Source: an uncultured Granulosicoccaceae bacterium
GTDB lineage: Bacteria; Pseudomonadota; Gammaproteobacteria; Granulosicoccales; Granulosicoccaceae
Direction of reading: 5' to 3'
NCBI GenBank assembly: GCA_937922015.1
Contig: CAKZVB010000087.1
Location: forward strand, 1 to 47,513
DNA length: 47,513 nucleotides
Position 1 is the first letter of the stretch, and every line of letters starts with the position of its first letter. Made by a program: the position numbers and the translations under genes. Under the pieces are notes generated by a model. The model ran no database searches and was not told the DNA's origin. It worked only from the letters and a program-made list of their open reading frames with translations. Positions 17,998-38,530 of this stretch are shown here, in pieces.

Positions 17998-19088
17998 GCC
18001 GATGCCATCTCCAATACGTGGTTGCACATGGACGAAACAGAGTGACCGGCACCGAGAATGTGTATGTGCGGTAACACGCGCTTAAGTGCTTCGGTCTCCG
18101 GTTGAAAATCGACGTCTGCCGCCAGTGGTGTTAACCAGCTTAATTGCCAGGCAATTCGGGACAGACGAATAGTGGCATCAACCATAGAATCCGCATCACC
18201 GCGCTCCAGCCCGTCTGATAGAACAATTACCGCTGCACCTCTGGCGAAGCCTGCATACTTAGGCACTGCCAGGTAGGCCTGCAGTGCATTACCGATCCGG
18301 GTTCCGCCATCAAAATCCGCTACCAGCTGACTGACACGCAGCATGGCAATATCGCGATCTTTTACCTGCAGCGCAGATGTAACGCGGGTAAGTCTTGTAC
18401 CTAAGGTAAATACTTCAGCGCTGTCTGCTACGCGTAATAAACTATGGGCAAAGCGTAGTGATGATGACGTGAGCTCTTTCATCGAACCCGATACATCAAT
18501 GAGTAACAGTACGCGGCGCTGTCGTTTCTTGCGCCGCATTACCGCCAGATCAATAATTTCTCCATCACGTTTTGCCGCCGCTCTGAGTGTGCGCCTGAGA
18601 TCAAGCTTTTCACCACGCGGCACACTGGCCCAGCGGTACGACCGCCGATGTGGCAGACGGTTTCCGGCGCGGCGCTCAAAATCAATCAATACCTGATCTT
18701 CTGCAGGCTGTGAAACTTCACGCGATTGAAGTTGCTCCTGCTCTACTGCATCTGTACCTGCAGGTTCCTGCGACTCACCGGTCTCGACAACCTCTTCACC
18801 GCCAGTGGGCTCAAAGGCGTCAACTTCGTCATCGGATGCGTCTGCCTGTGCGGCAATTTGCAGCCCGAAGAACAGCTTTTTAAAGATTGCATCAAACTCT
18901 ATACGGCGTTCCGGCGGGATCGCAAACAATGCAATTGCTGCGTGATGTATATCGTTAATATCCCTCGGGCCCAGCACACCTACCGCCTCAATAAAACCAA
19001 TCGTCTGATCAGGGGCTATCGCAAAGCCGTGCTGCCGCAACTCTGTGGCCAGTGCCAGTAACGGTTCTGTTGCCTGCGGGAGAGTCAT
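17994..19088 (-). CDS. CoxE-like von Willebrand factor A domain protein
   Basis: A 364-residue cytoplasmic protein. Residues 1-80 form a helical N-terminal domain, 80-135 are acidic and disordered, and about 190-364 form a VWA domain with the metal-ion-dependent adhesion site D-V-S-G-S (198-202). The family (CoxE/VWA containing) acts with a MoxR-type AAA+ ATPase in inserting or maturing the metal centre of molybdenum hydroxylases; for CO dehydrogenase, CoxD and CoxE are needed for the active [CuSMoO2] site. The start overlaps the CoxD-like stop by four bases. Its presence beside Mo-hydroxylase genes supports a maturation role here. Confidence 0.87.
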   Translation of the reverse strand: MTLPQATEPLLALATELRQHGFAIAPDQTIGFIEAVGVLGPRDINDIHHAAIALFAIPPERRIEFDAIFKKLFFGLQIAAQADASDDEVDAFEPTGGEEVVETGESQEPAGTDAVEQEQLQSREVSQPAEDQVLIDFERRAGNRLPHRRSYRWASVPRGEKLDLRRTLRAAAKRDGEIIDLAVMRRKKRQRRVLLLIDVSGSMKELTSSSLRFAHSLLRVADSAEVFTLGTRLTRVTSALQVKDRDIAMLRVSQLVADFDGGTRIGNALQAYLAVPKYAGFARGAAVIVLSDGLERGDADSMVDATIRLSRIAWQLSWLTPLAADVDFQPETEALKRVLPHIHILGAGHSVSSMCNHVLEMASA

Positions 19089-19969
19089 GCCACCTCACCC
19101 GGTATTATGGAGTCCATTCTCCCTGCCGCCAGGTACACCAGATCGTCCTGATCTTTTAGTGCCACACCGATAGAACGTCTAAACGAATCAGGCCACGCTG
19201 CCCCCTGACTATGCAATAGTGAGGCGGCCTCTGCCCACTCTACACTTTCTGCCACACCTGGCGGTTTTGCCAATGGTTCACGGCGTAATTTACCCACCGC
19301 TTCGACGATAGCTCTGGCAGTTTTCTCTGCAACGGAGCTTGCCCGTGTCATCACAATGCGCGCTTCGAGTACAGCATCGGGGTAGTCGATCCAGTGATAG
19401 ACGCAACGGCGTCTCAATGCTTCATGCAGGTCGCGGGTACGGTTTGAGGTGAGCACTACAATCGGAGCTTCGGTGGCGCGCTGAGTGCCGGTTTCGGGAA
19501 TGGAAATAGTAAAGTCAGATAAGAACTCAAGCAAAAATGCCTCGAACTCGTGGTCTGATCGATCAATTTCGTCAATAAGCAACAGTGACTTTGAGGGATT
19601 TCTTAATACCTCAAGCATCGGTCGCTGCAACAGAAACTCATCAGTATATAAGTTAACGTAGCTGTCCTGTGCCTGACGAATAGCCAGCATTTGACGCGGG
19701 TAGTTCCATTCGTATATTGCAGAGGCTGCATCAATACCTTCATAACACTGCAACCGCACCACATTTCTGCCAAGTACAGATCCTATTGCCTTGGCCGCTT
19801 CGGTTTTACCCACACCCGGCGCACCTTCAAGCAACAGCGGCTTACCCAGTGCCAGTGCAAGGTAGGCAGTGGTGGCCAAATCGGTACCTGCAATGTACTG
19901 TGCATCGGTTAATGCAGCTTGCAGGTCAGCCGGACTGGCGATACCGGAAATTACAGGCTTAACGGGCAT
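19085..19969 (-). CDS. CoxD-like MoxR-family AAA+ ATPase
   Basis: A 294-residue cytoplasmic AAA+ chaperone. Walker A is G-A-P-G-V-G-K-T (49-56), Walker B is L-L-L-I-D-E-I-D (128-135), sensor 1 is V-L-T-S-N-R-T-R-D, and an R-R-R-C-V-Y-H-W-I-D-Y-P motif is characteristic of MoxR/CoxD. It works with the adjacent CoxE-like VWA protein. It starts 9 bases after the stop of the C-terminal Mo subunit. The reaction matured here is unlikely to be CO oxidation, as the large subunit lacks the CO dehydrogenase active-site motif. Confidence 0.9.
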   Translation of the reverse strand: MPVKPVISGIASPADLQAALTDAQYIAGTDLATTAYLALALGKPLLLEGAPGVGKTEAAKAIGSVLGRNVVRLQCYEGIDAASAIYEWNYPRQMLAIRQAQDSYVNLYTDEFLLQRPMLEVLRNPSKSLLLIDEIDRSDHEFEAFLLEFLSDFTISIPETGTQRATEAPIVVLTSNRTRDLHEALRRRCVYHWIDYPDAVLEARIVMTRASSVAEKTARAIVEAVGKLRREPLAKPPGVAESVEWAEAASLLHSQGAAWPDSFRRSIGVALKDQDDLVYLAAGRMDSIIPGEVA

Positions 19970-21005: not shown

Positions 21006-22886
21006 TTATCTTCGCCGCCTGTTGATTAGATGCCGCGCCGCGCCGGGTCGGTTCATGCCTTTGTTAAAACGTTCCTGCGGTTCATAAGGTTTGACTGCCG
21101 GTGCTTCAGGTGGTGACGCCGCTGGTTGGTCACGCGGTGGTTGCTGATAACTTCCGGTGCTGGATGCAGGCAGTGACTCTGGAGGTGAGACTGGTGACTG
21201 TTGAGAAACCGGTGTCGACACTTGTGTTGCAGGCGGCTGTGTTGTTTCACGATGCGCTGTTGCAGCAGGTGGCGGCGCGCCGGCTGCATTGGCAAGCGGT
21301 GCAGTTGCTTTAACGGTATGTCCCACTCGCGAAGGCTCAATTTGCATATCTGCATGTTGCAGTGGAAGAGGGCTAAGTAACTCGCTTGCCTGACCCGCCG
21401 GCACCCTTTCAGTGCCCTGCGCAGGACTGGCAGCGATCGATGACGACCTGCGTTCACCGATCTTACCCACCATGTCAACAGCGGTTTCCGGTATTGCTGC
21501 GCGCTCAGTGCTGCCGCCGTCACGCAAACTGGAAGCCGACGCATACTGCGGGCCCAGCTGCCAGTTACTTTTCTGTGCCGCGACCTGACAACACTCTATC
21601 AATGCAGTATTTTTCGCTACTCTGCGGTGTGCTTTCATATCGCCATCGCGATACGCATTGTGGATACGAAGTTCGATAGGATTCATGCCAACCGCTTCGG
21701 CGACTTTATCCATATGCGATTCGATCGCAAAGTCCACACCGGTAATACCAAACCCGCGCATGGCCGTCGCCGGTGTGCGGTTTGTGTACACACAATAAAC
21801 ATTCGCCGCCACATTGGGAATCGTATAGGGGCCGGGCAAATGCCCCACGCCTTTTTGAATCGCATAAGAAGACAACCGCGTGTAAGCGCCGCAATCGAAA
21901 TAGCCGGTAAATTCGCGTGCGATAATGCTTCCATCATTCATCACACCATCCCTGATTACCCAGCGCTCCGCGCCGCGCGGCGCGCCCACCTGCATTTCCT
22001 CTTCGCGATCCCAGTGAAACTTTACCGGCTTACCGGTTAACAGTGCGCCAAGTACTGCCATGGGCTCAGTGATGCTGTCGACTTTGCCGCCGAACCCGCC
22101 CCCTACCGTGCCACCGATAAAATGCAGCCGTGACGACGGGACATCAAGCAGTTTTGCCGTGGTGCCGAGGGAAAAGAACAACGCCTGTGTAGCCGTGTGA
22201 CAGACGATCCGTTCATTGGTCTCAGGGGCAGCAATAGCACCGCAGGTCTCCATCGGCGCCTGTTCTATCGGTGACATCTGATACTGCCCTTCGACTATTT
22301 TATCTGCCCGCTGCATCGCGCTGTGCACATCTCCGAAGCGAAGTTTCTGATGATCAAACCGTCCGTAGTCGAACAGGTTATTCGGATAGGTCTCATTGAC
22401 TACCGGCGCGTCGGGTTGAATCGCCTGTTCTACATCGAGTACGTGCGGCAACACTTCCCAGTCAACTTTTATCGCCGCCACCGCATCACGAGCCTGACGC
22501 TCGGTATCCGCAATTACCGCACACACCGGCTCACCTTTATAGGCAACCTTGGCGGACGATAACAACGGTTCGTCATCACGGCCAAAGCCGATCAGGCTGA
22601 GCAGGGTATTGAGATTGTTCGGAACATCAGACGGCATCACTATACGCCGAACCCCGGGCATGCTCTCTGCACCGCTAACATTTATGTTGCGAATACGCGC
22701 ATGATGGTGTGGCGATCTAACACAACGCATGTGCAACAAACCATCAAACAGATGGTCATCGTAAAAACGTGTAGTGCCACGCACGTGTCCGATAATATCC
22801 TGTCGAATAGTCGGCTTGCCTACTTCATTCAGGTCATCGCTGCGTTCGTCGGCAAAGAGGTCTTTGCGAAATTCAACGCGACTCAT
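21006..22886 (-). CDS. Molybdenum hydroxylase, molybdopterin-binding subunit, N-terminal half with a long disordered tail
   Basis: A 626-residue protein. Residues 1-445 correspond to the first half of xanthine-dehydrogenase-family large subunits: D-I-I-G-H-V-R-G-T-T-R-F, S-P-H-H-H-A-R-I, A-Y-K-G-E-P-V, G-G-G-F-G-G-K (262-268) and A-M-R-G-F-G (375-380). The CO dehydrogenase motif A-Y-R-C-S-F-R is absent, so the substrate is not CO. Residues about 447-626 form a low-complexity tail rich in Pro, Ala, Ser and Gln, ending in R-R-R-R, that replaces the usual short linker to the second half. An AGGAG lies 9 bases before the ATG, which overlaps the stop of the iron-sulfur subunit by one base. Confidence 0.87.
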   Translation of the reverse strand: MSRVEFRKDLFADERSDDLNEVGKPTIRQDIIGHVRGTTRFYDDHLFDGLLHMRCVRSPHHHARIRNINVSGAESMPGVRRIVMPSDVPNNLNTLLSLIGFGRDDEPLLSSAKVAYKGEPVCAVIADTERQARDAVAAIKVDWEVLPHVLDVEQAIQPDAPVVNETYPNNLFDYGRFDHQKLRFGDVHSAMQRADKIVEGQYQMSPIEQAPMETCGAIAAPETNERIVCHTATQALFFSLGTTAKLLDVPSSRLHFIGGTVGGGFGGKVDSITEPMAVLGALLTGKPVKFHWDREEEMQVGAPRGAERWVIRDGVMNDGSIIAREFTGYFDCGAYTRLSSYAIQKGVGHLPGPYTIPNVAANVYCVYTNRTPATAMRGFGITGVDFAIESHMDKVAEAVGMNPIELRIHNAYRDGDMKAHRRVAKNTALIECCQVAAQKSNWQLGPQYASASSLRDGGSTERAAIPETAVDMVGKIGERRSSSIAASPAQGTERVPAGQASELLSPLPLQHADMQIEPSRVGHTVKATAPLANAAGAPPPAATAHRETTQPPATQVSTPVSQQSPVSPPESLPASSTGSYQQPPRDQPAASPPEAPAVKPYEPQERFNKGMNRPGAARHLINRRRR

Positions 22887-23368
22887 CAGGTAGTTCTCCT
22901 TCGCATGTTTTCCGCAGCCACAACTATGGCATCTATAATGGGTTCATAGCCGGTGCAGCGACACAGGTTACCCGAGATCGCTTCGGCTATTTCGTCACGT
23001 GACGGGCTGGCATTTCTATCGAGCAGCGCTTTTGCGGCCATCAACATACCTGAACTGCAGAAGCCGCATTGCGCTGCAAATCCTTCGACAAACGCTTTTT
23101 GCAACGGATGCAAATCGGGACCTTCAGCCAAGCCGCCATTGGTATCGATACGCTGGCCTTCGACTCGCTCTGCAAGCACTAAACAGCTCAATTGCGGTTC
23201 ACCATTGATCAGCACTGTGCAAGCGCCGCATGTACCCTGACCACAGCCGAACTTTGGCGACAGATCACCGACCGTGCGACGCAGCTCATCAAGCAGATTG
23301 CCACCCTGTTCAACAAACACGGATGTATCCTGGCCGTTAAGAACAAAACTGATCGGTTTTTTCGCCAT
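22886..23368 (-). CDS. Molybdenum hydroxylase, [2Fe-2S] small subunit
   Basis: A 160-residue protein with two [2Fe-2S] clusters. The plant-type ferredoxin cluster has C-G-Q-G-T-C-G-A-C and a fourth Cys in L-S-C-L. The second, in the helical domain, has C-G-F-C and C-R-C-T-G-Y. Length and motifs are typical of CoxS/NdhS. It passes electrons from the Mo centre to the FAD subunit. It lies between the FAD subunit gene (6 bases upstream) and the N-terminal Mo subunit (1-base overlap). A GGAG lies 10 bases before the ATG. Confidence 0.95.
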   Translation of the reverse strand: MAKKPISFVLNGQDTSVFVEQGGNLLDELRRTVGDLSPKFGCGQGTCGACTVLINGEPQLSCLVLAERVEGQRIDTNGGLAEGPDLHPLQKAFVEGFAAQCGFCSSGMLMAAKALLDRNASPSRDEIAEAISGNLCRCTGYEPIIDAIVVAAENMRRRTT

Positions 23369-23374
23369 CGTCGA

Positions 23375-24172
23375 TTAACTCCTTTGCAACAGCAGTCGTT
23401 TTAAATAAACAGGTGCCACTTCATTGCGGTACCAACTGCTGGCGAGTGAATCATCTGCAGGAGCCATCCCTTCAGTGCAGGCAGCAAGGCATCTTTGAAT
23501 ACCCGATTCATCGAGTGACGCGCCTTGCAAAGCCTGCTCGGCGGCCATTGCCCTGCGCGGTTCAGGGGCCATGCCGCCGAATGCGATTCTTACATTACCG
23601 GTGCGTCCGTTTTCACGATTCAGCAGCACAGCGACGGTTAGCAATGAAACCCCTTTGGGTTTTACCCGGCTGACCTTCAGATACTGAAAAGCCCCCGTGG
23701 GTGGTTGCCTGACAGAGATTGAATGAACAATATCGCGGGCAGCGTCAGAGCGTTCCAGAAATTGCTCCAGCGATTGCTGTTGTCCGGAAGCCCAGTGAAG
23801 GTTCGCATCAAGCGCCAACAGTGCGGTGGCCATATCACCATAGGGACGAGGTGCAAACAGATTGCCGCCGATAGTCGCCATATTTCGTATTGCCGGACCA
23901 CCGACGGAGCGCGCCACTTCCCCTAGAAACTGCAACTGCGGGTGCTGCATAATTTCAGACATCGTGACGCCAGCACCAATCAGGATTTCATCGCCCTGAC
24001 TTTGTATTTGTTTCAGTGCCGGATCAGTGCTTTGCACCAATTGATTAAAACTCTGGTCGCCATAGTTCACCTTGCGCATTAACAAAGTACCGCCAGCAAT
24101 ATATTGTGCGGATCCCCCGAGCACCTCACTCGCCTGGCGCAACGTATCGAAAGATTTCACTTCAATACTCAT
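23375..24172 (-). CDS. Molybdenum hydroxylase, FAD-binding medium subunit
   Basis: A 265-residue protein of the CoxM/NdhF type. FAD-binding motifs are I-A-G-G-T-L-L (near 26-32) and T-I-G-G-N-L (near 99-104). The C-terminal CO-dehydrogenase flavoprotein domain includes R-I-A-F-G-G-M-A-P-E-P-R-R-A. It takes electrons from the iron-sulfur subunit and passes them to an unknown acceptor, perhaps through the SRPBCC proteins to the quinone pool, as proposed for CoxG. Its ATG overlaps the upstream SRPBCC stop by four bases. Confidence 0.93.
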   Translation of the reverse strand: MSIEVKSFDTLRQASEVLGGSAQYIAGGTLLMRKVNYGDQSFNQLVQSTDPALKQIQSQGDEILIGAGVTMSEIMQHPQLQFLGEVARSVGGPAIRNMATIGGNLFAPRPYGDMATALLALDANLHWASGQQQSLEQFLERSDAARDIVHSISVRQPPTGAFQYLKVSRVKPKGVSLLTVAVLLNRENGRTGNVRIAFGGMAPEPRRAMAAEQALQGASLDESGIQRCLAACTEGMAPADDSLASSWYRNEVAPVYLKRLLLQRS

Positions 24173-24615
24173 TGTGTGACACCTTCCAAATGCATTCGAA
24201 TTGCGTTAAATCCGGCATAATAAATATCGTTTGCAACCAGGTTATGCAGTTCTTCTTCCCTGTTATCGATGGTATTAAAAGACGCCTGCCACTCCCAGTA
24301 GGTAGAATCGGAATCGGTGACCGGGAATAGCCGAACGTGAGAGACGTAGTTCAATAAGGGAATCGGTGTATCGAGCAGACAGTAACTATAACTTTGCTCA
24401 GCATCAGACAGCGCCAGTAACTGCTCTCGCAATTCAGCGCCATCAGCGAGGCGAAATTTTCTGACGCAGCCGACCGTGTCAGAATCACGGGATCGCTCAA
24501 TCTGGCTACTGGCAACTGCAGGATGCCAGCGGTCATGGCCGTTAAAATCACGCAACACGTTCCACACGGCATCAATCGGCTGATCGATAATTGTGCTGCA
24601 TTTAACCCGGACCAT
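24169..24615 (-). CDS. SRPBCC-fold protein, second of a tandem pair
   Basis: A 148-residue START-like (SRPBCC) hydrophobic-pocket protein. The pattern D-A-V-W-N-V-L-R-D-F-N-G-H-D-R-W-H-P-A, then G-C-V-R-K-F and L-R-E-Q-L-L-A-L-S-D, shows the MxaD/polyketide-cyclase-like branch. It is a paralogue of the gene immediately upstream, sharing the D-F-N, W-H-P, G-C-V-R and L-R-E-Q-L-L positions. CoxG, a related-fold protein, anchors CO dehydrogenase to the membrane and binds a quinone; a similar role here is inferred from position. Confidence 0.85.
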   Translation of the reverse strand: MVRVKCSTIIDQPIDAVWNVLRDFNGHDRWHPAVASSQIERSRDSDTVGCVRKFRLADGAELREQLLALSDAEQSYSYCLLDTPIPLLNYVSHVRLFPVTDSDSTYWEWQASFNTIDNREEELHNLVANDIYYAGFNAIRMHLEGVTQ

Positions 24616-24617
24616 GC

Positions 24618-25055
24618 TTACTCCCCGAAGAAACGCTTTAGCGCGTCGAAGCCGCCCTGAAATACGTTGGACGCTATGCCATCCGTCAGGTCTGCTTCAA
24701 CATCGGCTGCGCATTGAAAGTCCGCCGACCATTCAATAAAACATCGATCACCATCGGTCACCGGTGTTAAACGCAAGGTCGCCACGTAGTCGCTTAGCGG
24801 CATCGGTGACTCAAGAATTGTATAGGTGTAGAACTTGTCGAAATCGCTTAGTCCCAACAGTTGCTCACGCAGGTTGTCGCCGTTTTGAAGATTGAAGTTA
24901 CGAACACATCCGATTTTGTCACCGGGTAGTGATTCCTCGATGCGACTGTCGCGAATTCTCGGGTGCCACACCGGCAGACTGTTAAAGTCTCTGACACGCT
25001 CCCAGACTTTATCGCTGGACGCATCGATCACCGAAGATACATAGACACTGGCCAT
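24618..25055 (-). CDS. SRPBCC-fold protein, first of a tandem pair
   Basis: A 145-residue SRPBCC protein with K-V-W-E-R-V-R-D-F-N-S-L-P-V-W-H-P and G-C-V-R-N-F, followed by L-R-E-Q-L-L-G-L-S-D. It is clearly related to the next gene, so the pair arose by duplication. The ATG shares one base with the stop of the giant SPFH gene and so is translationally coupled. Two copies suggest a heterodimer or two different ligands. The cargo is unknown. Confidence 0.85.
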   Translation of the reverse strand: MASVYVSSVIDASSDKVWERVRDFNSLPVWHPRIRDSRIEESLPGDKIGCVRNFNLQNGDNLREQLLGLSDFDKFYTYTILESPMPLSDYVATLRLTPVTDGDRCFIEWSADFQCAADVEADLTDGIASNVFQGGFDALKRFFGE

Positions 25056-28000
25056 CAGGACGACCCTTCTTTCTTTTCTTGCGACTTGTTGTCATTAGCC
25101 TTGCCATCACCTTTGGCTTTTGAGTCAGCTAACCGTTGCTGCTCCCACTGCATGCGGTTAAGCGATGCCGCGTCATTCAGCAGGCCGCCCGATCTGGATA
25201 TATTCGAACCATCAACACCGATATCACTTAACAGGCTGTCTACCATTGGCGCCTGCACACGATAGCGAAGGGCCGAATTTATAATTTCATCAGTAGGAGA
25301 ACCTCCTCCCCCTGCCGCGCCATCCGGGTTGTCACCATCCCACCCCAGGCCGTTGCTGCCGCTCCCGCCAAGCTGCATAATTTTGATGTCATTGATCTTT
25401 TCAAGCGGCTTGACAGAGGCTGACACAATACCTTCAACATGTTCGAGCATCTTACGCTTGAACAATGACGTACGGGCCTCATCAGTAAGTACGTTCTCTG
25501 CCTCGTTAATAAGCTTCTGTGCTTCTGCTTCAACTGCGCTGCGAATTTTCTCGGCCTCTGCCGCAATGCTCTTTTCCTGTGCCTGTTTTTCGGCAAGCAG
25601 TACATCGACAGATGAAATTCGCATCGCCTCTTGTGTAGCAGAGGTGGTTTTTACTTGTTCGGATGCCTCTATCGCTTTTGCTTTTGCGATATCCGCTTCG
25701 ACCGCAGCAGCACTCTCATCAAGCGACTTTTTATAAAGTGCGATGACTTTTTCCATCGATGCTTCTTCGACTACCTTATCGCGATCGATCTCAAGCTTGC
25801 GTCGCTTGGCCTGATGACTGATCCTGATGTCATCCAGACCATCGTCAGAGGTGATTCGAGCACGCTCTACTTCTTCCTGACTGGCAATTTGCGCCTCGTT
25901 CAGTGCTTGTACCCGCTCAATTTCAAGTTGTTCCAACGCACGCTTGCGCTGAACCCTGGTGGCTTCGAGTTCCTGTTCTGCCAGAATGCGCTGCGCATCG
26001 ACGGTTTTTTCCTTGGCTACTCTGGCTGCATCCACCGCTTCTTCAGCGGCGATCTGTGCAGTATCTATGGCTTTATTTCTTTCTATTTCTAAATCGCGAA
26101 CCGTTTTATCACGACCGATCTTTTCCCTACTGGTTTCAAGCTCTTTGGAGATACGCTCCTGATCCAGCAATCGGCGCGAACCGATTTCTGCAGTTTCGAT
26201 GGCTTCCTGTTTTTCAATTTCACGGGCACGCACTTCAGCATCGCGTGCGATCTCTGCAGAGCGCGTTGAAGACTCTTCAAGAATGCGCGCCATATTAATT
26301 TCTTTTTGTGCCTGCGCTGTTGCGACATCGACAGCACGGTTGCGCAATATTTCACGTTCACGCAAGTCCTGTTCAAACGCCACCCGATCTGCTGCATTTT
26401 TCTTTTCCTTGGCAATCCTTACCGCCTCGACTGCCTCTGCTTTTAACAGCTCAGCCTTCTCTATGGCCTCTGCTTTTTCCAGCTCCCTTTCCTGGGTGTT
26501 CTCATCTGACTCTATGCGCTGAACCAGCAATCTCGCTTCTTGTGCAATACGTTTGGCTTCGACTGCTTCACGCGCCGCTATGTCGGCTTCATCAATGTAC
26601 TGGTTGCGATTAATTTCAAGTTCACGCAGATCTTTTTCATAGGCAATTCGAATAGAACTGGTGGCTTTCTCCTGAGCTATCCTGCGTGCCTCTGTCGCTT
26701 CTCTGGCGGCACTTTCCGCTTCCTTTATCGCCGCCGCACGTTTTACATCACGTTCCTGCGTCGCTTCATTGGCCTCGAGTTTTTCAAGAGCAAGTTTCTT
26801 TTCATGCTCTATTCTTGCCTTCTCTGTTGCCTGGGTCGCTGCGATCTCCGCCGCATCAACAGCCTCATTGCGGGCGATTTCAAGATGCCGCACACGCTGT
26901 TCTTTTTGTATTTTCGAAGCGGTGGTTTCTTCCGATGCCTCGATCTGCGCCAGCTCAATGGAACGTTGTTGTTCTATCTGCAACGAACGCGTATCCAGTT
27001 CGGATGCAATTCGTTCTGCGGCAAGCTCTTGCTCTCTGGCAATTTTTGCAGCTTCTGTGGCTTTTTGACTGGCAATTTCCGCCTCATCAAGGGCGGTATT
27101 GCGTTCAATTTCAAGGCGGCGTGTTTCGCGGTCAGATGCAATGCGTTGAGCACTGACTACTTTTTCCTGTTCGATGCGCAACATCTCAGAGGCTTCACGC
27201 GATTCAATCTCCGCCGATTCAATTGCGAGGTTGCGTTGAATCTCACGTTCTTTGGTATTTCTTTGCTGCTCTATACGGGCTTCTGTTAAACGCTGTTCCT
27301 GATCGATCCTCGCTCTTTCAATCGTTTCACGTGCATCAATGTCTGCCGCATCAACTACACGCTGTCTTTCAATTTCCTTTGCCTGAGTGTCCTGCTCTTT
27401 GGCAATTCGAGCCTCGGCTATCGATTTCTCCTGTTCTATTTTGGCTTTTTCAACAATCTCTTTGGCGGCAATACTTGCTGCCTCAGTTTCTTTTTCAGAT
27501 CTTATTCGCGCCGCTGATAATTTCTGTTCCTGAGAAATACGCGCCGTTTCAATTTCTTCACGGGTTCGGATTTCAGCTTCGTCGATTGCTCTCTTGCGTT
27601 CAATCTCCTGCTGCGAGATCGAACGTTCCGATTCGATTCTGACTTCAGCAATTTGACGCTCGTTGGCAATCCGCGCGGTTTCTATTTCTTCGTTAGACTG
27701 TAGTGTTGCACGCTGTGCTTCTGCCGCTTGTTCTGATCTTTCACGCTCGAGCTCGGCCCTTTGCCGTGCGCGCCGAAATTCAATATCGCGTTCCTGTTCC
27801 AGTCTCGCCTCTTCACTGGCGCGCTCAATTTCAAGCGCCTGTTTTTCTGCCAGTAAGTTGCGCTCGCGAATTTTAAGGGCAGTTTCCTGCTCGATATCAT
27901 TGCGCAGTTTTCTGCGTCCTTCTATTGCCTCTATAACATTCGTTAAACCCTCTGCATCGAAGCGGTTGGAAGGATTAAAGAATTCGATTTCAGTTTGATC

Positions 28001-28555
28001 AATGTCGGTCACTGCAACGCTTTCAAGCTCAAGGCCGTTTTTATCAAGCCCATCTTGTGCAACTTCCAGCACCCGCGCCACATAGGTATTACGGCTTTCG
28101 TGCAACTGCTCCATGGTCATTTCAGAGGCAACCGTCCTCAGCGCAGAAATAAACTTACCTGACAGCAGGCGATGTATGCGTTCAGGCTCAAGCATACGTC
28201 GCCCCATAGTCGAGGCTGCCAGTGATACTGATTCGTTGGTTTGTCTGACGCGAACATAGAATTCGGCGTCGACGTCTACGCGCATTCTATCTTTGGTAAT
28301 GAGAGCGTCTTCCTTTTCACGCTTGATCGCCAAATCAAGCGTATTCATATTGACCGGAGTAATTTCATGAATTATCGGCCAGACAAATGCGCCTCCGTCA
28401 ATGACAACTTTTTCACCAAGAAACCCGGTACGAACAAAAGCTATTTCTTTGGTCGATCTTCTATACAGCCAGTTCATCACCCAATAGGCGATAAAAACGA
28501 CTATCACGGCAACGATCAACCAAAGTATTAGTTGACCTATTATTTGTCCACTCAT
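25055..28555 (-). CDS. Giant flotillin/YqiK-like SPFH protein with a hendecad-repeat coiled coil
   Basis: A 1166-residue membrane protein. Residues 6-30 are one transmembrane helix; 35-210 form an SPFH (band 7) domain with R-M-R-V-D-V-D-A-E-F-Y-V-R-V; about 225-980 are one continuous charged helix; then come a Gly-rich segment (about 1060-1085) and a polar tail. Flotillins of the YqiK type are around 550 residues, so the helix is more than twice the usual. From 316 to 931 it is a nearly gap-free series of 11-residue units grouped in 44-residue blocks (L-E-I-E-R-N-x-A-I-D starts a block). GAGGAG lies 10 bases before the ATG. It sits between the Tm-1-like pair and the SRPBCC pair. A membrane scaffold for the Mo hydroxylase or transporter is my inference. 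Confidence 0.9.
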   Translation of the reverse strand: MSGQIIGQLILWLIVAVIVVFIAYWVMNWLYRRSTKEIAFVRTGFLGEKVVIDGGAFVWPIIHEITPVNMNTLDLAIKREKEDALITKDRMRVDVDAEFYVRVRQTNESVSLAASTMGRRMLEPERIHRLLSGKFISALRTVASEMTMEQLHESRNTYVARVLEVAQDGLDKNGLELESVAVTDIDQTEIEFFNPSNRFDAEGLTNVIEAIEGRRKLRNDIEQETALKIRERNLLAEKQALEIERASEEARLEQERDIEFRRARQRAELERERSEQAAEAQRATLQSNEEIETARIANERQIAEVRIESERSISQQEIERKRAIDEAEIRTREEIETARISQEQKLSAARIRSEKETEAASIAAKEIVEKAKIEQEKSIAEARIAKEQDTQAKEIERQRVVDAADIDARETIERARIDQEQRLTEARIEQQRNTKEREIQRNLAIESAEIESREASEMLRIEQEKVVSAQRIASDRETRRLEIERNTALDEAEIASQKATEAAKIAREQELAAERIASELDTRSLQIEQQRSIELAQIEASEETTASKIQKEQRVRHLEIARNEAVDAAEIAATQATEKARIEHEKKLALEKLEANEATQERDVKRAAAIKEAESAAREATEARRIAQEKATSSIRIAYEKDLRELEINRNQYIDEADIAAREAVEAKRIAQEARLLVQRIESDENTQERELEKAEAIEKAELLKAEAVEAVRIAKEKKNAADRVAFEQDLREREILRNRAVDVATAQAQKEINMARILEESSTRSAEIARDAEVRAREIEKQEAIETAEIGSRRLLDQERISKELETSREKIGRDKTVRDLEIERNKAIDTAQIAAEEAVDAARVAKEKTVDAQRILAEQELEATRVQRKRALEQLEIERVQALNEAQIASQEEVERARITSDDGLDDIRISHQAKRRKLEIDRDKVVEEASMEKVIALYKKSLDESAAAVEADIAKAKAIEASEQVKTTSATQEAMRISSVDVLLAEKQAQEKSIAAEAEKIRSAVEAEAQKLINEAENVLTDEARTSLFKRKMLEHVEGIVSASVKPLEKINDIKIMQLGGSGSNGLGWDGDNPDGAAGGGGSPTDEIINSALRYRVQAPMVDSLLSDIGVDGSNISRSGGLLNDAASLNRMQWEQQRLADSKAKGDGKANDNKSQEKKEGSS
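25763..27610 (-). repeat. In-gene repeat: 56 hendecads in 44-residue (132-base) blocks
   Basis: Within the SPFH gene, residues 316-931 divide exactly into 56 units of 11 residues. Block starts fall at residues 316, 393, 437, 481, 525, 558, 602, 646, 690, 734, 778, 822, 877 and 921. Most are 44 apart; the exceptions (77, 33 and 55) are still multiples of 11. The repeat is kept at protein level; the DNA copies have diverged. Confidence 0.85.
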
Positions 28556-28568
28556 ACGGGGCAGCTCC

Positions 28569-29399
28569 TCAGGACTTTCGGCCGATGGCCTTAAACTCTT
28601 TTGTTGTTTCAGTTAACGCGATTTCTGTCGGCAGACGCTCCATTGAAGACGCCCCGTAAAACCCGTGACAGTATTCGGTATTGCTCAACACATATTGCGC
28701 ATCAGCGGGTGATGACACCGGTCCGCCATGCACCAGCACAACGATATCTTTGTTGACATCCAAAGCAGCCTTGGCCCAGGCATCAGTGATTGCAGGGGCA
28801 TCTTCGAGTTTGATACCGGTTTCTGCGCCAATACTGCCGCCGGTAGTCAGACCGTGGTGAACCACCACAATATCGGCTCCCACTTTGGCCATCGCGATTG
28901 CATCTTCCTCACTGAACACATAGGGTGTGGTTAACAGGTCTTTCTTATGTGCTGCGGCAATCATGTCAACCTCTAACTGATATGACATTCCGGTCTCTTC
29001 GAGGTTGGCTCTGAAGACACCGTCTATTAAACCCACCGTTGGAAAATTCTGTACACCGGCAAAACCTGCGTTTTTTACATCATCGAGAAATCGATCCATT
29101 AAACGAAACGGATCAGACGCGCAAACCCCTGCCAGTACCGGGGTATTTTTCACCACCGGCAAGACCTCACCCGCCATTTCCATCACAATTGCGTTGGCAT
29201 CCCCGTAGGGCATGAGCCCGGCAAGGCTGCCACGGCCCGCCATACGAAAGCGGCCTGAATTGTATATAACGATCAGGTCAATGCCACCGGCCTCCTCGCA
29301 CTTGGCACTCAATCCGGTACCGGCACCACCACCGATTATCGTTTCGCCTCTTTTAACCATGTCTCGATAGCGGGCTATCAATTGTTTACGATCATGCAT
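28569..29399 (-). CDS. TIM-barrel protein of the phosphoenolpyruvate hydrolase family (Tm-1 C-terminal-like)
   Basis: A 276-residue cytoplasmic protein. [11 protein letters not shown] near 23-33, [24 protein letters not shown] and [11 protein letters not shown] are the hallmarks of the PEP-hydrolase-like TIM-barrel family. The tomato resistance protein Tm-1 has a UPF0261 domain followed by this barrel on one chain; in bacteria the two are commonly adjacent genes, as here, 4 bases apart. No enzyme activity is well established for the pair. Its presence in a catabolic and transport operon points to metabolism of a specific compound. Confidence 0.87.
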
Positions 29400-29403
29400 A
29401 TCG

Positions 29404-31578
29404 CTAAGCTCTTTTTGGATTGACTACTACATGTGAATTTAGTGAACGGAATGTTTTTACCAATAGATCTGCAAAGGCCGGATCATTGATGTTTTGTGGC
29501 ACCCGTATCAGTTGACGCTGACTTGTCTGGGTCACGGTCTCTTCAATGGCTTCGAACAATGCGGCATCGGCTGCCGGATCCCAGAACGCCTGGCCAGGCG
29601 AATCCAACATCGAGACACCACCTTCGTTTAAGTAGAACCGTACCGGGTTACTCATTTGATTGAGTTTTTCACCGATAAATTTACCCATCTGCCGACACTC
29701 GTCGACGGTAGTGCGCATTAACGTTATTTGTGGATTATGTTCGTAAAACAAACGGCCTTTATATTTCTCCGGCACAGTCTCCGGCGCATTAAAGTTGACC
29801 ATGTCCAATGCACCACAAGCTCCGATATATGGCTTGCCACTGCTGGCAAATACATCAAAGCGGGTTTGATCTGCCGCGAACACACCACCAGCTATCATGT
29901 CTGCAATTTCTGTTGTGGTCAGATCGAGCACTGCCGCCAGTTGCCCACCTGCCATTAGCTTTTCCATTGATCTGCCACCGGTACCGGTCGCATGAAAAAC
30001 CAGACAGTCATACTGCGCCGCTAATTGTTCCGACACATTGCTCACCACCGGTGTGGTAACACCGAACATCGTCAGTCCAAGCGCCGGTTTGTCTTCGTAT
30101 TCTTCAAGTGGTCTGGCACGAGCCGCCGCCATTGCCGCAACCGCCTCTGCCGCATTCTTTAGCACCACACGGGTAATGGAATTAATACCCTGAACATCGG
30201 CAACCGAGTGCATCATCAACATGTCTGACGACCCTACATACTGTTCCGTGTTACCCGAGGCAACCGTCGACACTATCAGTTTGGGCACACCAACCGCCAG
30301 CGACCTGAAACCGGGAGCAACTAACGCCGTGCCACCGGATCCGCCGGCACCTAGTACGCCTGCAACATCACGGCGACTCTGCACCCATCGCTCGAAAGCG
30401 AGTGTCATACCCGCCACCGCCGTACCTCTGTCGCTGGTAAATACCGCACTCGCTCCACGTGGATGCATTTCCGCAACGGCGTTAGGTGGCACTGCCGCAC
30501 CGGATGGTTTGCCTGAAGTCGACAGATCGACTAACTGAGTTCTGACACCGGCGGCTTTGATGATGTCGCGCATGTAGCGCAGTTCATCGCCTTTGGTATC
30601 GAGTGTTCCGCAGACATAAACAATCCCGTTGCGGCCTTCGTCAATTTTTGACATCGTGCTGGCGGCGGCAGATTGATCAGTAATGGATTCGGTGACCGTC
30701 CTGGCGCTGCGGGCGATAGTCGCGGCGGCAACCATCGGAGTCCAGCGATCGGGTATCTGCGGGTTTGATAAATAGATTTTTTTTACTGTACTGCCTGCCC
30801 GTGCAGCGCGCTGATTATCTGAAGTGCTCTGGCTGACCTGTGGTGTTTCATCATGTGCATGGCGACCGACACCAAGCAATGACTGCTGTAGCTGCGTGTC
30901 TGCTGCCAGTACACCCGAATCCATAATGCGATTGACTTTGCCGTTGATCATAATGGCAACCCGGTCCGCAACAGTACACGCCACGCCAATATTCTGTTCG
31001 ATCATCAGCACATCAATATCACCATCGCTGCCCAGCTGACTGAGCATCTGGGCCACTTGAGAAACAATGACCGGAGCTAGTCCTTCGGTCGGTTCATCCA
31101 TCAATAGCAGTTTAGGGTTCAGTAACAAGGCACGGCCAATAGCGAGCATTTGCTGCTCCCCACCGGACAGTTGACCACCGCCATTTGATTTGCGCTCTGC
31201 CAGCCGTGGAAACACCGAGTAGACGCGCTCAACAGACCATGGTCCTTTTGGTTTTGCCACCAGTTTTAGATGTTCATCAACCGTCAGTGACTTCCAGAGA
31301 CGCCTTCCCTGCGGCACATAACCAATCCCTAAACGCGCAATCTCTGCAGGCGTCTTACCGACCAGGGAATGTCCGTATAGTGAGATACTGCCCGAGGCTA
31401 CCGGCTCAAGACCCATAATGGCCTTGCATAGCGTGGTTTTACCCATACCGTTTCGACCCACCAGCGACAACACACCTGACCCCAGCTCAAGATCGACGCC
31501 CTGCAAAGCGTGTGACTGACCGTAATAGACGTTCAGTCCTCTCACCTGAAGCGCTGAACTTGCACTACTCATCGGCAT
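29404..31578 (-). CDS. Fusion: LivF-type ABC ATPase with Tm-1-like (UPF0261) ATP-binding domain
   Basis: A 724-residue fusion. Residues 8-237 are a complete LivF ATPase: Walker A G-R-N-G-M-G-K-T (41-48), signature L-S-G-G-E-Q-Q (137-143), Walker [12 protein letters not shown] (157-167). A polar linker of about 75 residues follows. Residues 316-724 are a full Tm-1-like domain starting [13 protein letters not shown], with [15 protein letters not shown] and [12 protein letters not shown]. The frame is continuous. The start may be the ATG at 31572, which has the better-spaced GGGA. It overlaps the LivG-like gene, and supplies the only LivF for the second transporter. Confidence 0.9.
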
Positions 31579-32356
31579 TTCCCAGATAGAGTGCCTGCAC
31601 TTCTACATCGTTTTCTATTTCCTCTGGTGTGCCGTTTTTGAAGATACGACCGTTATGCATCATGGTGACCGACTCTGCCACGCGTAATGCCACATCCATA
31701 TCGTGTTCGATGATAATAAAACCCATATGCGATGGTAATTCGGTGAGGATTGTTACCAGATCTGCGCGCTCTGTCGGAGACAAGCCGGCTGCCGGCTCAT
31801 CAAACAAAATAAACCTTGGAGCACCGGCCAGGGCCATTGCAATTTCAAGTTGCCGCTGCTGTCCGTAAGATAACTCTGCAACCGGGGTGTTGCGTACATC
31901 GTGCAAATTAACAATCTGCACCAGCTCATCCGTGCTTGACATCAAAGCGTCTTTAGCACGCGGTCGTATAAAAGAAAAACGCCCTGTTGATACACCGCGA
32001 CAGGCAATATACACATTGTCAAAAACACTAAGTGCCGGGAACAACTGAGAAATTTGGTAGGTTCGTCTAAGTCCGCGACGGATGCGCTCGTGCGAGGGAA
32101 ATTCTGATATGTCTTCACCAAAAAACTTGATCGATCCGGTAGTGGCTGGAAAGTCACCGGTAATGCAATTAAAGAGTGTGGTCTTGCCGGCACCGTTAGA
32201 CCCCAGCACGGCGCGCCGCTCACCGGGTCTGACAGACATTGAAATGTCTTCTAGAGCTGCCAGTGCACCGAACAGCTTTGATATATTTTTCAGTTCAAGC
32301 GCGAACTCGGTGCCGGTGGACGATAGTGCGCGATTTTCTGTCAGGGCCGCGTTCAC
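31565..32356 (-). CDS. HAAT ABC transporter ATP-binding protein, LivG type (second set)
   Basis: A 263-residue ATPase with a GTG start inside a GTGA overlap with the LivM-like gene. The first 18 residues are a polar extension. Walker A is G-S-N-G-A-G-K-T, the signature L-S-Y-G-Q-Q-R is the LivG type, Walker B is F-I-L-F-D-E-P-A-A-G-L-S-P, and the H-loop I-I-E-H-D-M-D is present. All catalytic motifs are intact, unlike the LivG of the first set. It overlaps the LivF/Tm-1 fusion by 8-14 bases. Confidence 0.93.
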   Translation of the reverse strand: MNAALTENRALSSTGTEFALELKNISKLFGALAALEDISMSVRPGERRAVLGSNGAGKTTLFNCITGDFPATTGSIKFFGEDISEFPSHERIRRGLRRTYQISQLFPALSVFDNVYIACRGVSTGRFSFIRPRAKDALMSSTDELVQIVNLHDVRNTPVAELSYGQQRQLEIAMALAGAPRFILFDEPAAGLSPTERADLVTILTELPSHMGFIIIEHDMDVALRVAESVTMMHNGRIFKNGTPEEIENDVEVQALYLGNADE

Positions 32357-33420
32357 AAGTCACGTCCATCGCTTTGTTCAAACGGATTTCGCTGCTGCCA
32401 GACCTTAAATTTTTTCCACAAACCCAGTATCCCGTCCGGGGAAAAGAACACGATCACTAAAAAACTCAGGCCGATCAGTAAACGAAAACGCTCGCCGCTT
32501 AAACTTAGTGCAATCAACGCATCGGTAGAAAACGTTTTTAGTAACACATAGATAAGCGCTCCAATAAACGCCCCGATCGGATGACCCAGCCCGCCAATTA
32601 CCGCAACCACCAACACATCAATAGCAGGGCCAATGCCCACGGTACCCGGTGATATCTGTGCGGACTGCCAGGTCAGCAGTATTCCACCAATGCCCGCAGG
32701 TATGGCCGCCAGCGTATAGGCCGCCACGCGGTGGGCCACGACGTTGTAGCCAAGCGCCGACATACGGCGTGAGTTGTCCCTGACACCCTGCAGCGCCAGA
32801 CCAAAAGGCGCTCTGGAGATATAGAGTATGAATAGGTACGAGGCGACAGCCCAGAACAGCGTCAGATAATAAAACGCTTTCGGTCCGCGCCAGTCGACAC
32901 CGAACAAAGACGGTGGATGAATAGAATTAAAACCCGAAAAGCCATTAAAGACCTCATAATTCTGCCGTGCAAAATAGAAGAATGCCGCTGCGATCGCCAG
33001 TGTAATCATGATGGTATAAATGCCGTCAGTCCTGACCGCAAGCCATCCGATTGCGCTTGCAAAAAGCGCCGTGACAATAAGCGCTACTGGTATAGCCGCA
33101 TACCATGGCCAGCCCTGACTAATTTCAGTGATCGCGCTGTCACCCAGAATAGCAACCAGATATCCGGCAAGCCCGGCAATGGTCATTTGTGCAAGACTAA
33201 CCATGCCACCATACCCGGCAAGAAACATCAGGCTAAGTGCAATCATGCCAAGGATAAAAGTCCAGCCAAAGATCTGAAACAGCATAAAGTCACTGGCAAA
33301 CAACGGCATGATTAATAGCAGAATACCCACTACCCAATATTGAGCAGGTATTTTTTCAAGCCAGTTCTGACGAGTACCATCAAGCCTGACAATCTTTGAC
33401 TCTGTTTCAACGATAGCCAT
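32353..33420 (-). CDS. HAAT ABC transporter permease, LivM type (second set)
   Basis: A 355-residue inner-membrane permease. After a soluble N-terminal stretch of about 28 residues there are about nine helices. Family motifs are G-Y-G-G-M-V-S-L-A-Q-M (family norm S-L-G-Q/H), the coupling loop G-V-R-D-N-S-R-R-M-S-A-L-G-Y-N, and G-G-L-G-H-P-I-G-A-F-I-G-A near the end. It starts 3 bases after the LivH-like stop and overlaps the LivG-like start by four bases. Confidence 0.92.
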   Translation of the reverse strand: MAIVETESKIVRLDGTRQNWLEKIPAQYWVVGILLLIMPLFASDFMLFQIFGWTFILGMIALSLMFLAGYGGMVSLAQMTIAGLAGYLVAILGDSAITEISQGWPWYAAIPVALIVTALFASAIGWLAVRTDGIYTIMITLAIAAAFFYFARQNYEVFNGFSGFNSIHPPSLFGVDWRGPKAFYYLTLFWAVASYLFILYISRAPFGLALQGVRDNSRRMSALGYNVVAHRVAAYTLAAIPAGIGGILLTWQSAQISPGTVGIGPAIDVLVVAVIGGLGHPIGAFIGALIYVLLKTFSTDALIALSLSGERFRLLIGLSFLVIVFFSPDGILGLWKKFKVWQQRNPFEQSDGRDL

Positions 33421-33423
33421 AGA

Positions 33424-34455
33424 TCAGGAAGACCCCATCAATCCGTGGGGCCGGAACGCCAACACCAGAACCATAATTAAAAAGGTAAGCACCACTGCAT
33501 AGGTCGGAAAATAAACAGACCCGAACTGCTCAGCTAACCCAACAATGAGTGCACCGATTGCCGCCCCGGAGATTGAACCCATACCGCCAACAATCACCAC
33601 CACCAGTGACGCGAGTAGAAAACGGATGTCCTCGCCCGGTGCCACCGATTGAAAGGTGCCACCTACTACGCCTGCGATACCTGCGAGACCGGCGCCGAAA
33701 ATAAACACACCAAGGAAGACCAGTTGTATTCTTACACCAGTGGCTGCCAGCATATCGCGATCATCAACCCCTGCCCTGATCAACATTCCTACACGGGTAC
33801 GATTCAACAACAACCACATTAGTACACCGACCACGACTGAGGCGACAAAAATGGCCAGTCTAACGACGGGATACTTCATGAAGATCAATTCACCGGATGA
33901 GCGTTTTACTCCGGTGGCAAAAAATGTTTCTACCGGACCGGACAACCACGATGGCGGACTGATGTTAAAAAAATCACCTCCGAAGGACCACAGCATCAGA
34001 TCGGCAAACACGATTGACAATCCAATGGTAACCAACGTTTGCCGCAGGTCCTGACCTTCCATACGCCGAAATACAAAAATCTGCATTAACGCGCCAACAA
34101 ACCCCACCACGATAAAGGCAACAGGAAACGCCAGCAACCAATACCCTGTCCATTCAGAGACAAAGTAGCCCACGTAACCGCCAAGCAAATACAGTGACCC
34201 GTGCGCCAGGTTCACATTGCGCATTAAACCGAATATCAGGGTAAAGCCACTTGCGACCAGAAAGTACAGCCCCCCCAGAGTAATGCCGTTAAAAAGTGCA
34301 CTGAGAAATATTTTTTTCTTGCCGATGAGATCGATAAGCCAGGCCGGCCATAGTGCAAATACCATCCACAATAAAACGATGGCACCAAAGCCGATGATGG
34401 CAGCCCACCACGGATGCTTAGAGGCATACTCACGCACTATTGCAACCCCGGTCAT
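33424..34455 (-). CDS. HAAT ABC transporter permease, LivH type, with an extra N-terminal helix (second set)
   Basis: A 343-residue inner-membrane permease. The LivH core begins near residue 50 (L-F-N-G-I-T-L-G-G-L-Y-F-L-V-A-S-G-F-T-L-I-F-G), with V-N-L-A-H-G-S the diagnostic motif. The coupling loop is R-A-G-V-D-D-R-D-M-L-A-A-T-G-V. About 45 residues are added in front, including one more hydrophobic helix, making it longer than the usual 290-310. The ATG at 34455 is preferred to the TTG just before it. It lies 167 bases after the AraC gene, so a separate promoter is possible. Confidence 0.92.
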   Translation of the reverse strand: MTGVAIVREYASKHPWWAAIIGFGAIVLLWMVFALWPAWLIDLIGKKKIFLSALFNGITLGGLYFLVASGFTLIFGLMRNVNLAHGSLYLLGGYVGYFVSEWTGYWLLAFPVAFIVVGFVGALMQIFVFRRMEGQDLRQTLVTIGLSIVFADLMLWSFGGDFFNISPPSWLSGPVETFFATGVKRSSGELIFMKYPVVRLAIFVASVVVGVLMWLLLNRTRVGMLIRAGVDDRDMLAATGVRIQLVFLGVFIFGAGLAGIAGVVGGTFQSVAPGEDIRFLLASLVVVIVGGMGSISGAAIGALIVGLAEQFGSVYFPTYAVVLTFLIMVLVLAFRPHGLMGSS

Positions 34456-34622
34456 CAATCAACTGACAATGTTGAGGTATACACATCATTGGGTTAACGA
34501 TTCTCCCTCATACTTTTCGATCCACCGAACTGTGCTGCCGAGAATGCACTCAGCAAATAATCAGAGATGAAACGATAAACGTATTAGAAGAGCTTGCCTG
34601 TACCTGAAAGTATTTTAAATTC

Positions 34623-35468
34623 TCATTGAATCGGAATATGACCCGCCGGTCTGTCTGCAACCCTGCGGTATTCAGAGGGTGCGATTCCAACATTGGATGA
34701 GAAAAATCGGGTGAAACTTGCCTGAGAGGAGTAACCAAGATCGTAGGCGATACTGGTCACGGTTTTTTCTGTGTTGACCAGTTCATCTATCGCGCGCTCT
34801 GATCTGAGCGTGTTTAAATAGACATTGGGTGTTACGCCGAGTTGTAATTTAAATAGTTTAAAAAAGTGTGGCCGTGACAACCCGACAGTGCGCGCAACAG
34901 CTTCCATTTCTACTTCAGCGGAGACAAACTGTTGCATTATCCGCAGGGATCGACGAATACGATGGTCACTGAAATTCGAGCATTTGTTTTGCAACAAACC
35001 AGGCGTTCTTACGCTTTGCCAGGTCTGTTCGTAGCAAAGTTTAGACAATGAAAACAGCAGAGTATCAATGTTCTCAATGTTGTGAACGTTGAGTAACAGC
35101 GAGGTAAATCGGCGAACCAGATCATTTATACCCTGCGTTCGCACTACCTGGGAACTACCGAATCGCAGCGTGAATTCAGCGGATTGGCTGTTTTCGAGAA
35201 ACCATATTGGCTTGATGTACAACACCAGAACTACGCTTGTTTGCGACGGTTTCACATTGAAACTATGGGGTTCCAGTGGACTGACAGCAGTCGCGTTTTG
35301 ATAGTCAACGCTGTAAGTCTTGTCGTCTATTACAACATCACTGAAATTTCCCTCAATATGGAATATGAGGTGACCCTCACGATGAGCGTGCGTTATAAGT
35401 GATTTATCTAATCGATATAATGCGGCTCTGCCGAACGCGCCATGACAAACTGATATTGCCGTGCTCAT
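34623..35468 (-). CDS. AraC-family transcriptional regulator
   Basis: A 281-residue regulator. The N-terminal half has a cupin-like sensor (H-A-H-R-E-G-H-L-I-F-H, then P-H-S-F-N). The C-terminal hundred residues hold two helix-turn-helix motifs: M-E-A-V-A-R-T-V-G-L-S-R-P-H-F-F-K-L-F and T-S-I-A-Y-D-L-G-Y-S-S-Q-A-S-F-T-R-F-F, the second matching the AraC signature. The start at 35468 is fixed by GGAGGATGT just before the ATG. It lies in the head of the 24-kb cluster, between the binding-protein and permease genes, so it is the best candidate for the cluster's activator. Its inducer is probably the transported compound. Confidence 0.9.
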   Translation of the reverse strand: MSTAISVCHGAFGRAALYRLDKSLITHAHREGHLIFHIEGNFSDVVIDDKTYSVDYQNATAVSPLEPHSFNVKPSQTSVVLVLYIKPIWFLENSQSAEFTLRFGSSQVVRTQGINDLVRRFTSLLLNVHNIENIDTLLFSLSKLCYEQTWQSVRTPGLLQNKCSNFSDHRIRRSLRIMQQFVSAEVEMEAVARTVGLSRPHFFKLFKLQLGVTPNVYLNTLRSERAIDELVNTEKTVTSIAYDLGYSSQASFTRFFSSNVGIAPSEYRRVADRPAGHIPIQ

Positions 35469-35709
35469 ACATCCTCCATTGCCGAGCAACAATCGCTTGC
35501 TGCTATATACCCAACGATGCTTCGTCACCTCTGAGTTTTCTCCAGACCCGGATCAGGGAAAAAAACTCTTCATCTGCAAGAATGCCCGCTACAGGGTCGC
35601 AGAGGAATACAAAATTCGAAAAAAAAAGACTATAAGATACGCCCAATCAGGAAATTAGATTTTCAGTCGTATCACAAGGTCCCCATAAAATTATTCTAAC
35701 AGGCATCTT

Positions 35710-38178: not shown

Positions 38179-38530
38179 GTAGATTCTCCAGTTGCTCTCA
38201 TCGGGCGAACAATGCCCCACATCAGATTGCAAAATTGGATGCCCTACCACCATCCCCCGGAGTTACCAGCCATATCCGTAGGTCTTTTTAATCGCCTGTA
38301 GGCCGCACGGATCATCCACGAAGTGCGGATTTTGTCCGAATGCCAGCAAGCCCCCTGCAAGACCCTGAGTCATAGTGAGTGGCGGGAACAGTGGAAATGT
38401 TGTGTCTCACATTAGCTTACTTATCAGCTTTTTTTAAATTTGTACAAAAAAGAAAAGACTGTCAGTGAAGTTCGCCAACAAATAATTTAGATACTGTTCA
38501 TTCGCTAAAAGAAAAGACGGGGGTTTCCTT
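38179..38530. promoter_or_regulatory. Divergent control region at the head of the cluster
   Basis: 352 bases separate the livK-like gene from the rightward NTF2-like gene and must hold promoters for both. A hairpin CCGCAC/GTGCGG (38303-38328, 14-base loop) is present. The right half is AT-rich, and AAAAGAAAAGAC occurs near 38447 and again near 38506. I cannot name a binding site for the AraC protein. Confidence 0.45.

Follow-up and report, generated by a model that had tools for sequence, protein, structure and literature searches.

A long flotillin with a rod of 59 hendecads encoded in a molybdenum hydroxylase operon of a Granulosicoccaceae bacterium

The flotillin gene and its domains

The window analysed here is a 47,513-nucleotide stretch of DNA, contig CAKZVB010000087.1 of an uncultured Granulosicoccaceae bacterium (GenBank:GCA_937922015.1), in which a gene for an unusually long flotillin lies between the genes of an ABC transporter and those of a molybdenum hydroxylase (Table 1). 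The original prediction, made from the DNA letters, had described the product as a giant SPFH protein, and this was borne out by a Pfam scan, which detected Band_7 (E 8e-16) and Flot PF15975 (E 4e-33) and no vault-repeat domains, and by a PDB sequence search, which matched flotillin-1 (E 3e-11). All structure models were of single chains. The model of residues 1–400 (42 sequences; mean predicted local distance difference test score, pLDDT, 80) had a hydrophobic helix at the N terminus, then the SPFH region and, over residues 204–399, a single continuous helix; its fold matches were flotillin, prohibitin, stomatin, HflK/C and vault, with chains of the flotillin cage (9l3g/9bq2) as the best. Having Band_7, PF15975 and an N-terminal membrane anchor, as bacterial flotillins (SPFH2) do, the protein is, judged by its domains, a flotillin. 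Its gene adjoins those of a PEP-hydrolase-like and an SRPBCC protein and has no NfeD-type operon partner. Such a partner (YuaF/YqiJ) is usual for SPFH2 genes, yet not defining, because 17 genomes have an SPFH2 gene without it (PMC2636767). Since YRRSTK follows the transmembrane helix, the rod is, by the positive-inside rule, probably on the cytoplasmic side.

The presence of vault chains among the fold matches would also fit a closed shell like that of the vault, or a filament, in which the long rods are assembled away from the membrane. However, the confidently modelled N-terminal hydrophobic helix and the result of the Pfam scan speak against such a structure, which we consider very improbable.

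An uninterrupted 11-residue register

An 11-column leave-one-out profile fitted the 59 rows starting at residues 283 to 921 (residues 283–931) best at zero shift, with the exception of row 602, which was weak. The register extended weakly backward to about residue 250 and stopped at about 931. The consensus of the unit, or hendecad, was A-R/E-I-A-R-E-E/K-A-V/T/L/I-E-A, and the rod, with no Pro and 3 Gly, was highly charged. Fourier analysis of I/L/V/M over residues 316–931 gave powers of 68 at period 2.75, 63 at 5.5 and 36 at 2.2, all harmonics of 11, as against 0.5 at period 7 and 0.0 at 3.5; the maximum in 1000 shuffles was about 7 at the four periods tried. A heptad period, or no period, is thereby excluded, and the 11-residue period over many units with no 7-residue period is that of a hendecad coiled coil. 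Self-identity at lag 44 was 0.32 versus a background of 0.099 (z 11.7), and lags 11, 22, 33, 55, 66, 77, 88 and so on were all raised (z 4 to 11). The strongest repeat of the rod is thus one of 44 residues, or four hendecads, a loosely kept super-repeat. Conservation was 0.71–0.73 for the rod and the post-rod helix alike, versus 0.82 for SPFH.

These results agree with most of what the original prediction had said of the rod. Periodicity analysis, which it had proposed as a check, came out in its favour; the spacing of 44 residues that it had noted was the strongest lag, other multiples of 11 were raised as well, and the register is uninterrupted as claimed, but the count of 56 repeats has to be replaced by 59. 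At 0.15 nm per residue, a length of about 97 nm follows for the 649 hendecad residues, and one of about 120 nm for the entire helix (about 815 residues), so that the earlier figure of around 90 nm was reasonable.

Rod lengths in related flotillins

A scan of named genomes identified 80 loci with at least 71% identity over the first 216 residues, mostly in Alphaproteobacteria, and by sequence comparison the window flotillin belongs to a clade of long, mostly alphaproteobacterial flotillins. Rod length was taken as the distance between the conserved motifs FNPxNxFDA and NEAEN. Among 86 proteins, 35 rod lengths were found in only two classes modulo 11, while the adjoining C-terminal tails had 34 lengths in all 11 classes. 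In a set of 135 flotillins with both motifs, in which ordinary flotillins are included and some genomes are present from two collections, 41 of the 43 rod lengths fell within the two classes. One of the two outliers, L010, is an ordinary flotillin; in the other, L227, a block of 124 residues that takes in the register-shift element seems to have been duplicated. Nor is the rule obeyed by all of four ordinary flotillins that are more distant and for which a looser motif was used, and the quantisation is therefore a property of the long-flotillin clade. Indels between nearest pairs were 11, 22, 33, 44, 66, 77, 88, 99, 110, 165 and so on, every listed one a multiple of 11; growth in steps of 44 only is ruled out by those of 11, 22, 33 and others.

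The two classes differ in register. In class A it was unbroken at every length checked, and in class B there was a single +3 shift about 100–112 residues ahead of the rod end; further shifts were limited to L058 and L068. It was also noticed that the shift of class B (L055, L057–L068 and L128–L166) is conserved, around AEExRVIELAAKKSERADADAKVRxAEI. Ordinary flotillins have rods of 5–9 hendecads and proteins of 513–605 amino acids, as compared with 59 hendecads and 1166 amino acids in the window flotillin.

The DNA of the relatives revealed how such steps may arise. L148 and L161 are 97% identical and differ by 132 bp; within L161, the sequence most similar to this stretch is the neighbouring copy of 44 residues. 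In other relatives, DNA repeats up to 93% identical occur at lags of 44, 77, 88, 110 and 132 residues. In the window gene itself, Tandem Repeats Finder detected no recent tandem array, and the best 99-bp self-match was 64%. The DNA repeats of the window gene are thus old, and recent duplications (44 to 132 residues) are found only in relatives. On a tree of 121 tips with 40 different lengths, at least 56 length changes and about 6 changes of register class were counted. Multiples of 33 bp arise from recombination between repeats by itself, but the absence of small indels in the rod, while the tail is full of them, suggests selection for register in addition. Growth of the rod by whole-unit duplication within the clade, as the original prediction had proposed, is therefore well supported by sequence comparison, although in the relatives rather than in the window gene, and the comparison also supports the view that changes disrupting the 11-residue register are selected against. 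A further statement of that prediction, that YqiK-type flotillins are about half as long, held as well.

The same data could be explained by neutral expansion, in which the rod grows and shrinks by whole units, any length above a minimum works and the protein does the same job as a short flotillin. The steps of 11 would then result from unequal recombination between repeats phased at 33 bp together with selection for an unbroken helix, and length itself would be meaningless. The recent duplications, the many length changes on the tree and the 44-residue difference between L148 and L161 are all as expected under this explanation. On the other hand, rod length is identical in 16 of 17 measured members of genus g133, which carries the gene in 93 of its 118 species; the window flotillin has the same rod length as ten relatives; eight genomes that have the operon without the hydroxylase are equal in rod length; and no rod encoded together with the hydroxylase is as short as an ordinary one. 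We therefore regard neutral expansion as rather unlikely.

Hydrophobic stripes on the rod helix

On an 11/3 helical wheel of pooled class A rods, hendecad position 2 is Ile, Val or Leu in 98% (196°) and position 8 is Val, Ile, Leu or Thr (65°); positions 1, 5 and 9 are mostly charged, with charges at 98–164°, and positions 0, 3 and 7 are Ala-rich, with Ala at about 311°. The Ile and Val rows are thus 131° apart, with the charges in between and Ala on the far side. A single hydrophobic core at positions a/d/e/h was not found: Ala occupies the places corresponding to a, d and h, so that such a core would consist largely of Ala, with the most conserved residue, Ile, at its edge. Fourier power at the fundamental of 3.667 was weak in the rod, the hydrophobic residues being spread over more than one stripe. 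A simple dimer would have a single core; with the arrangement found, each rod helix is instead expected to touch more than one other, as in a wall or bundle.

This pattern bears on the possibility that the protein is a long tether, with dimers, trimers or thin bundles reaching about 100 nm into the cytoplasm and holding enzymes or another membrane, with no closed wall. Rod length alone would fit, as would a highly charged, helical and Pro-free rod. However, the two hydrophobic stripes with Ala opposite and the weak power at 3.667 are unlike a single-core dimer, and the protein retains the SPFH and Flot domains, with which known family members form rings. A tether seems to us improbable.

The operon around the flotillin

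From the transporter side, the gene order is permease, permease, ATPase, ATPase-UPF0261 fusion, PEP-hydrolase-like protein and flotillin, followed by two SRPBCC genes, CoxM, CoxS, CoxL in two genes, MoxR and VWA (Table 1).

Table 1. Features of the long flotillin and of neighbouring genes in the window
Feature	Position	Strand	Basis
Long flotillin, 1166 aa, ATG start	25055..28555	-	
N-terminal transmembrane helix, residues ~7-29	28469..28537	-	Sequence; hydrophobic helix 2-34 in model
SPFH/Band_7 domain, residues 41-189	27989..28435	-	Pfam, model, fold search
Long-helix start ahead of strict repeats, residues 204-282, common to ordinary flotillins	27710..27946	-	
Rod, 59 uninterrupted hendecads, residues 283-931	25763..27709	-	Profile, periodicity
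Post-rod helix, residues 932-1016	25508..25762	-	Gap-free alignment in long relatives
Flotillin C-terminal domain PF15975, residues 988-1114	25214..25594	-	Pfam
SRPBCC protein 1 (Polyketide_cyc2)	24618..25055	-	
SRPBCC protein 2 (Polyketide_cyc2)	24169..24615	-	
FAD subunit of molybdenum hydroxylase, CoxM-like	23375..24172	-	
[2Fe-2S] subunit, CoxS-like	22886..23368	-	
Molybdopterin subunit, N-terminal part, 626 aa	21006..22886	-	
Molybdopterin subunit, C-terminal part, 341 aa	19979..21004	-	
MoxR-type AAA ATPase	19085..19969	-	
CoxE-like VWA protein	17994..19088	-	
Amidohydrolase	17122..18027	-	
PEP-hydrolase-like protein (PF09370)	28569..29399	-	
ABC ATPase-UPF0261 fusion, conserved in operon	29404..31578	-	
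ABC transporter ATPase	31565..32356	-	
ABC permease, branched-chain type	32353..33420	-	
ABC permease, branched-chain type	33424..34458	-	
AraC-type regulator	34623..35528	-	
Periplasmic substrate-binding protein	36922..38253	-	
aa, amino acids.

This order is common to the window and nearly every long-rod locus where contigs permit a check, with gaps mostly at contig ends. Ordinary flotillins have other gene surroundings and not the UPF0261/hydroxylase operon. Operon loci with the hydroxylase have rods of 26–68 hendecads, and loci with the transporter, UPF0261 and SRPBCC genes but without the hydroxylase have 7 (Variovorax), 18 (G071), 21 (eight genomes) and, in L227 on a short contig, about 32. 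In the protein tree, the long rods with hydroxylase form one nested group, which also contains L067, a long rod of about 41 hendecads with no hydroxylase genes nearby. These data point to a correlation of rod length with the hydroxylase genes.

The molybdopterin subunit is encoded by two genes, the first part having a Pro/Ala/Gln-rich tail of about 120–150 residues, and the split is kept in relatives (Yoonia and others). An aerobic CO dehydrogenase was rejected as the neighbouring enzyme, as the AYxCSFR motif is absent from the large subunit. The loop there reads AMRGFG, which we take to be similar to that of xanthine dehydrogenases, and by this sequence the operon enzyme resembles a xanthine-dehydrogenase-type molybdenum hydroxylase. 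Near the operon, a gene (39206–40810) encodes a fusion of SMP-30/gluconolactonase and isochorismatase domains. No RNA families or tRNAs were found within the window.

Origin of the operon

The UvrA encoded on the same contig is 80–89% identical to that of all 13 congeners and 56–67% to those of other genomes; a binning error is thus an unlikely source of the operon. The long flotillin and the fusion gene were found in none of the 13 congeners, and the nearest relatives are in marine Alphaproteobacteria and a Granulosicoccaceae bin, L088 (83% identity over 808 residues, gap-free). The simplest reading of these comparisons is that horizontal transfer brought the operon into the host genome.

Three scattered matches were also noticed. 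In L020 (G014:C46:50681-53788), of the same family, a 55-residue frame contains a 36-residue match to the flotillin N-terminus and adjoins a UPF0261 gene (G014:C46:53188-54414); this region is possibly a decayed copy of the operon. The operon also occurs, with 75% identity, in L133; the record is titled Oceanobacillus (Bacillota), so that contamination or mislabelling is likely. A 469-kb Sinorhizobium phage (GenBank:PV764938.1, 355715–356248) encodes an SPFH protein that shares 46% identity with the N-terminal domain.

Proposed assembly

Sequence comparison supports the view that an 11-residue wall-helix unit, present in about 5–9 copies in ordinary relatives, has been multiplied to 59 by repeat-unit duplication. 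The N-terminal helix would serve as the anchor and the SPFH domains would form a ring on the cytoplasmic side. Like the helices of the human flotillin wall, the rods would line up next to one another, and the C-terminal Flot region would close the wall that they form. The structure would scaffold or fence off the importer, the SRPBCC proteins and the molybdenum hydroxylase at the membrane, a role proposed because the operon is conserved and long rods go with the hydroxylase genes. To the resulting assembly, an unusually tall or wide SPFH palisade that scaffolds the enzyme system of the operon at the membrane, we give about an even chance.

Its size can be extrapolated from the reported relation between subunit number and CC1 length, y = 0.1782x + 10.22 (PMC12624060). 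If this relation holds, a wall of about 730–815 residues would comprise about 140–155 subunits. Scaling up the 32-nm width of the 44-subunit cage would give a width of about 100–115 nm, and the height would be about 100 nm. Only tentatively can it be proposed that such chambers (about 140–155 subunits, about 100 nm wide and high), far exceeding in size the SPFH membrane cages known so far, enclose a fenced membrane patch at which the hydroxylase and carriers work, with size tuned in 1.6-nm steps per hendecad.

Several observations weigh against the palisade or its dimensions. The full-length AlphaFold model was weak (pLDDT 60) and was not used, and the subunit figure lies about 4 times beyond the fitted range. 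The 44-residue gap between two 97%-identical proteins speaks against a strict ruler. Hydroxylase genes are not nearby in L227 (about 32 hendecads, on a short contig) and L067 (about 41 hendecads), and the correlation with rod length rests on few independent events on the tree. Finally, the human flotillin-1 wall has no hendecad period, and the analogy to it is therefore one of homology and position rather than of repeat type.

A literature search, mostly outside subscription journals, found no description of such rods or of the operon, nor any paper in which hendecads are treated together with flotillin or SPFH, or UPF0261 together with flotillin. SPFH cages reportedly vary in size with wall-helix length (PMC12624060), but the known walls are from distant family members. 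One clade with more than 40 wall lengths, between about 240 and about 915 residues and in register-keeping steps of 11, makes the determinant of cage size directly testable with close relatives. The rods may also indicate a physical scaffold used by an uncharacterised molybdenum-hydroxylase operon that is widespread and common in Rhizobiales and Rhodobacterales.

Comparison with known systems

The window operon is similar to cox clusters with CoxG in having a three-subunit molybdenum hydroxylase, MoxR, VWA and SRPBCC proteins, but differs in the split large subunit without AYxCSFR and in the added flotillin, UPF0261 and PEP-hydrolase-like genes. CoxG has been proposed to pass electrons to quinone, and the survey in question makes no mention of flotillin (PMC13240472).

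Ordinary proteobacterial flotillins (YqiK-type) share with the window flotillin the transmembrane helix, the SPFH and Flot domains and a short hendecad stretch, and are about 37–57% identical to it in the first 216 residues. HflK/C, prohibitin and stomatin cages have the SPFH fold and the wall-helix principle in common with it. The best match among solved structures, in both sequence and fold, is the human flotillin-1/2 cage (9bq2, 9l3g), which likewise combines SPFH, a long wall helix and a C-terminal cap region; the human protein has no transmembrane domain (PMC12624060). Its wall is a right-handed barrel of 44 helices of 186 residues, without heptad repeats, in a cage 22 nm high and 32 nm wide (PMC11260169). 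The wall helices of SPFH proteins known so far have 44–189 residues (PMC11260169), as compared with about 730–815 in the window flotillin, the rod of which is thus several times longer than those of SPFH proteins with known structure.

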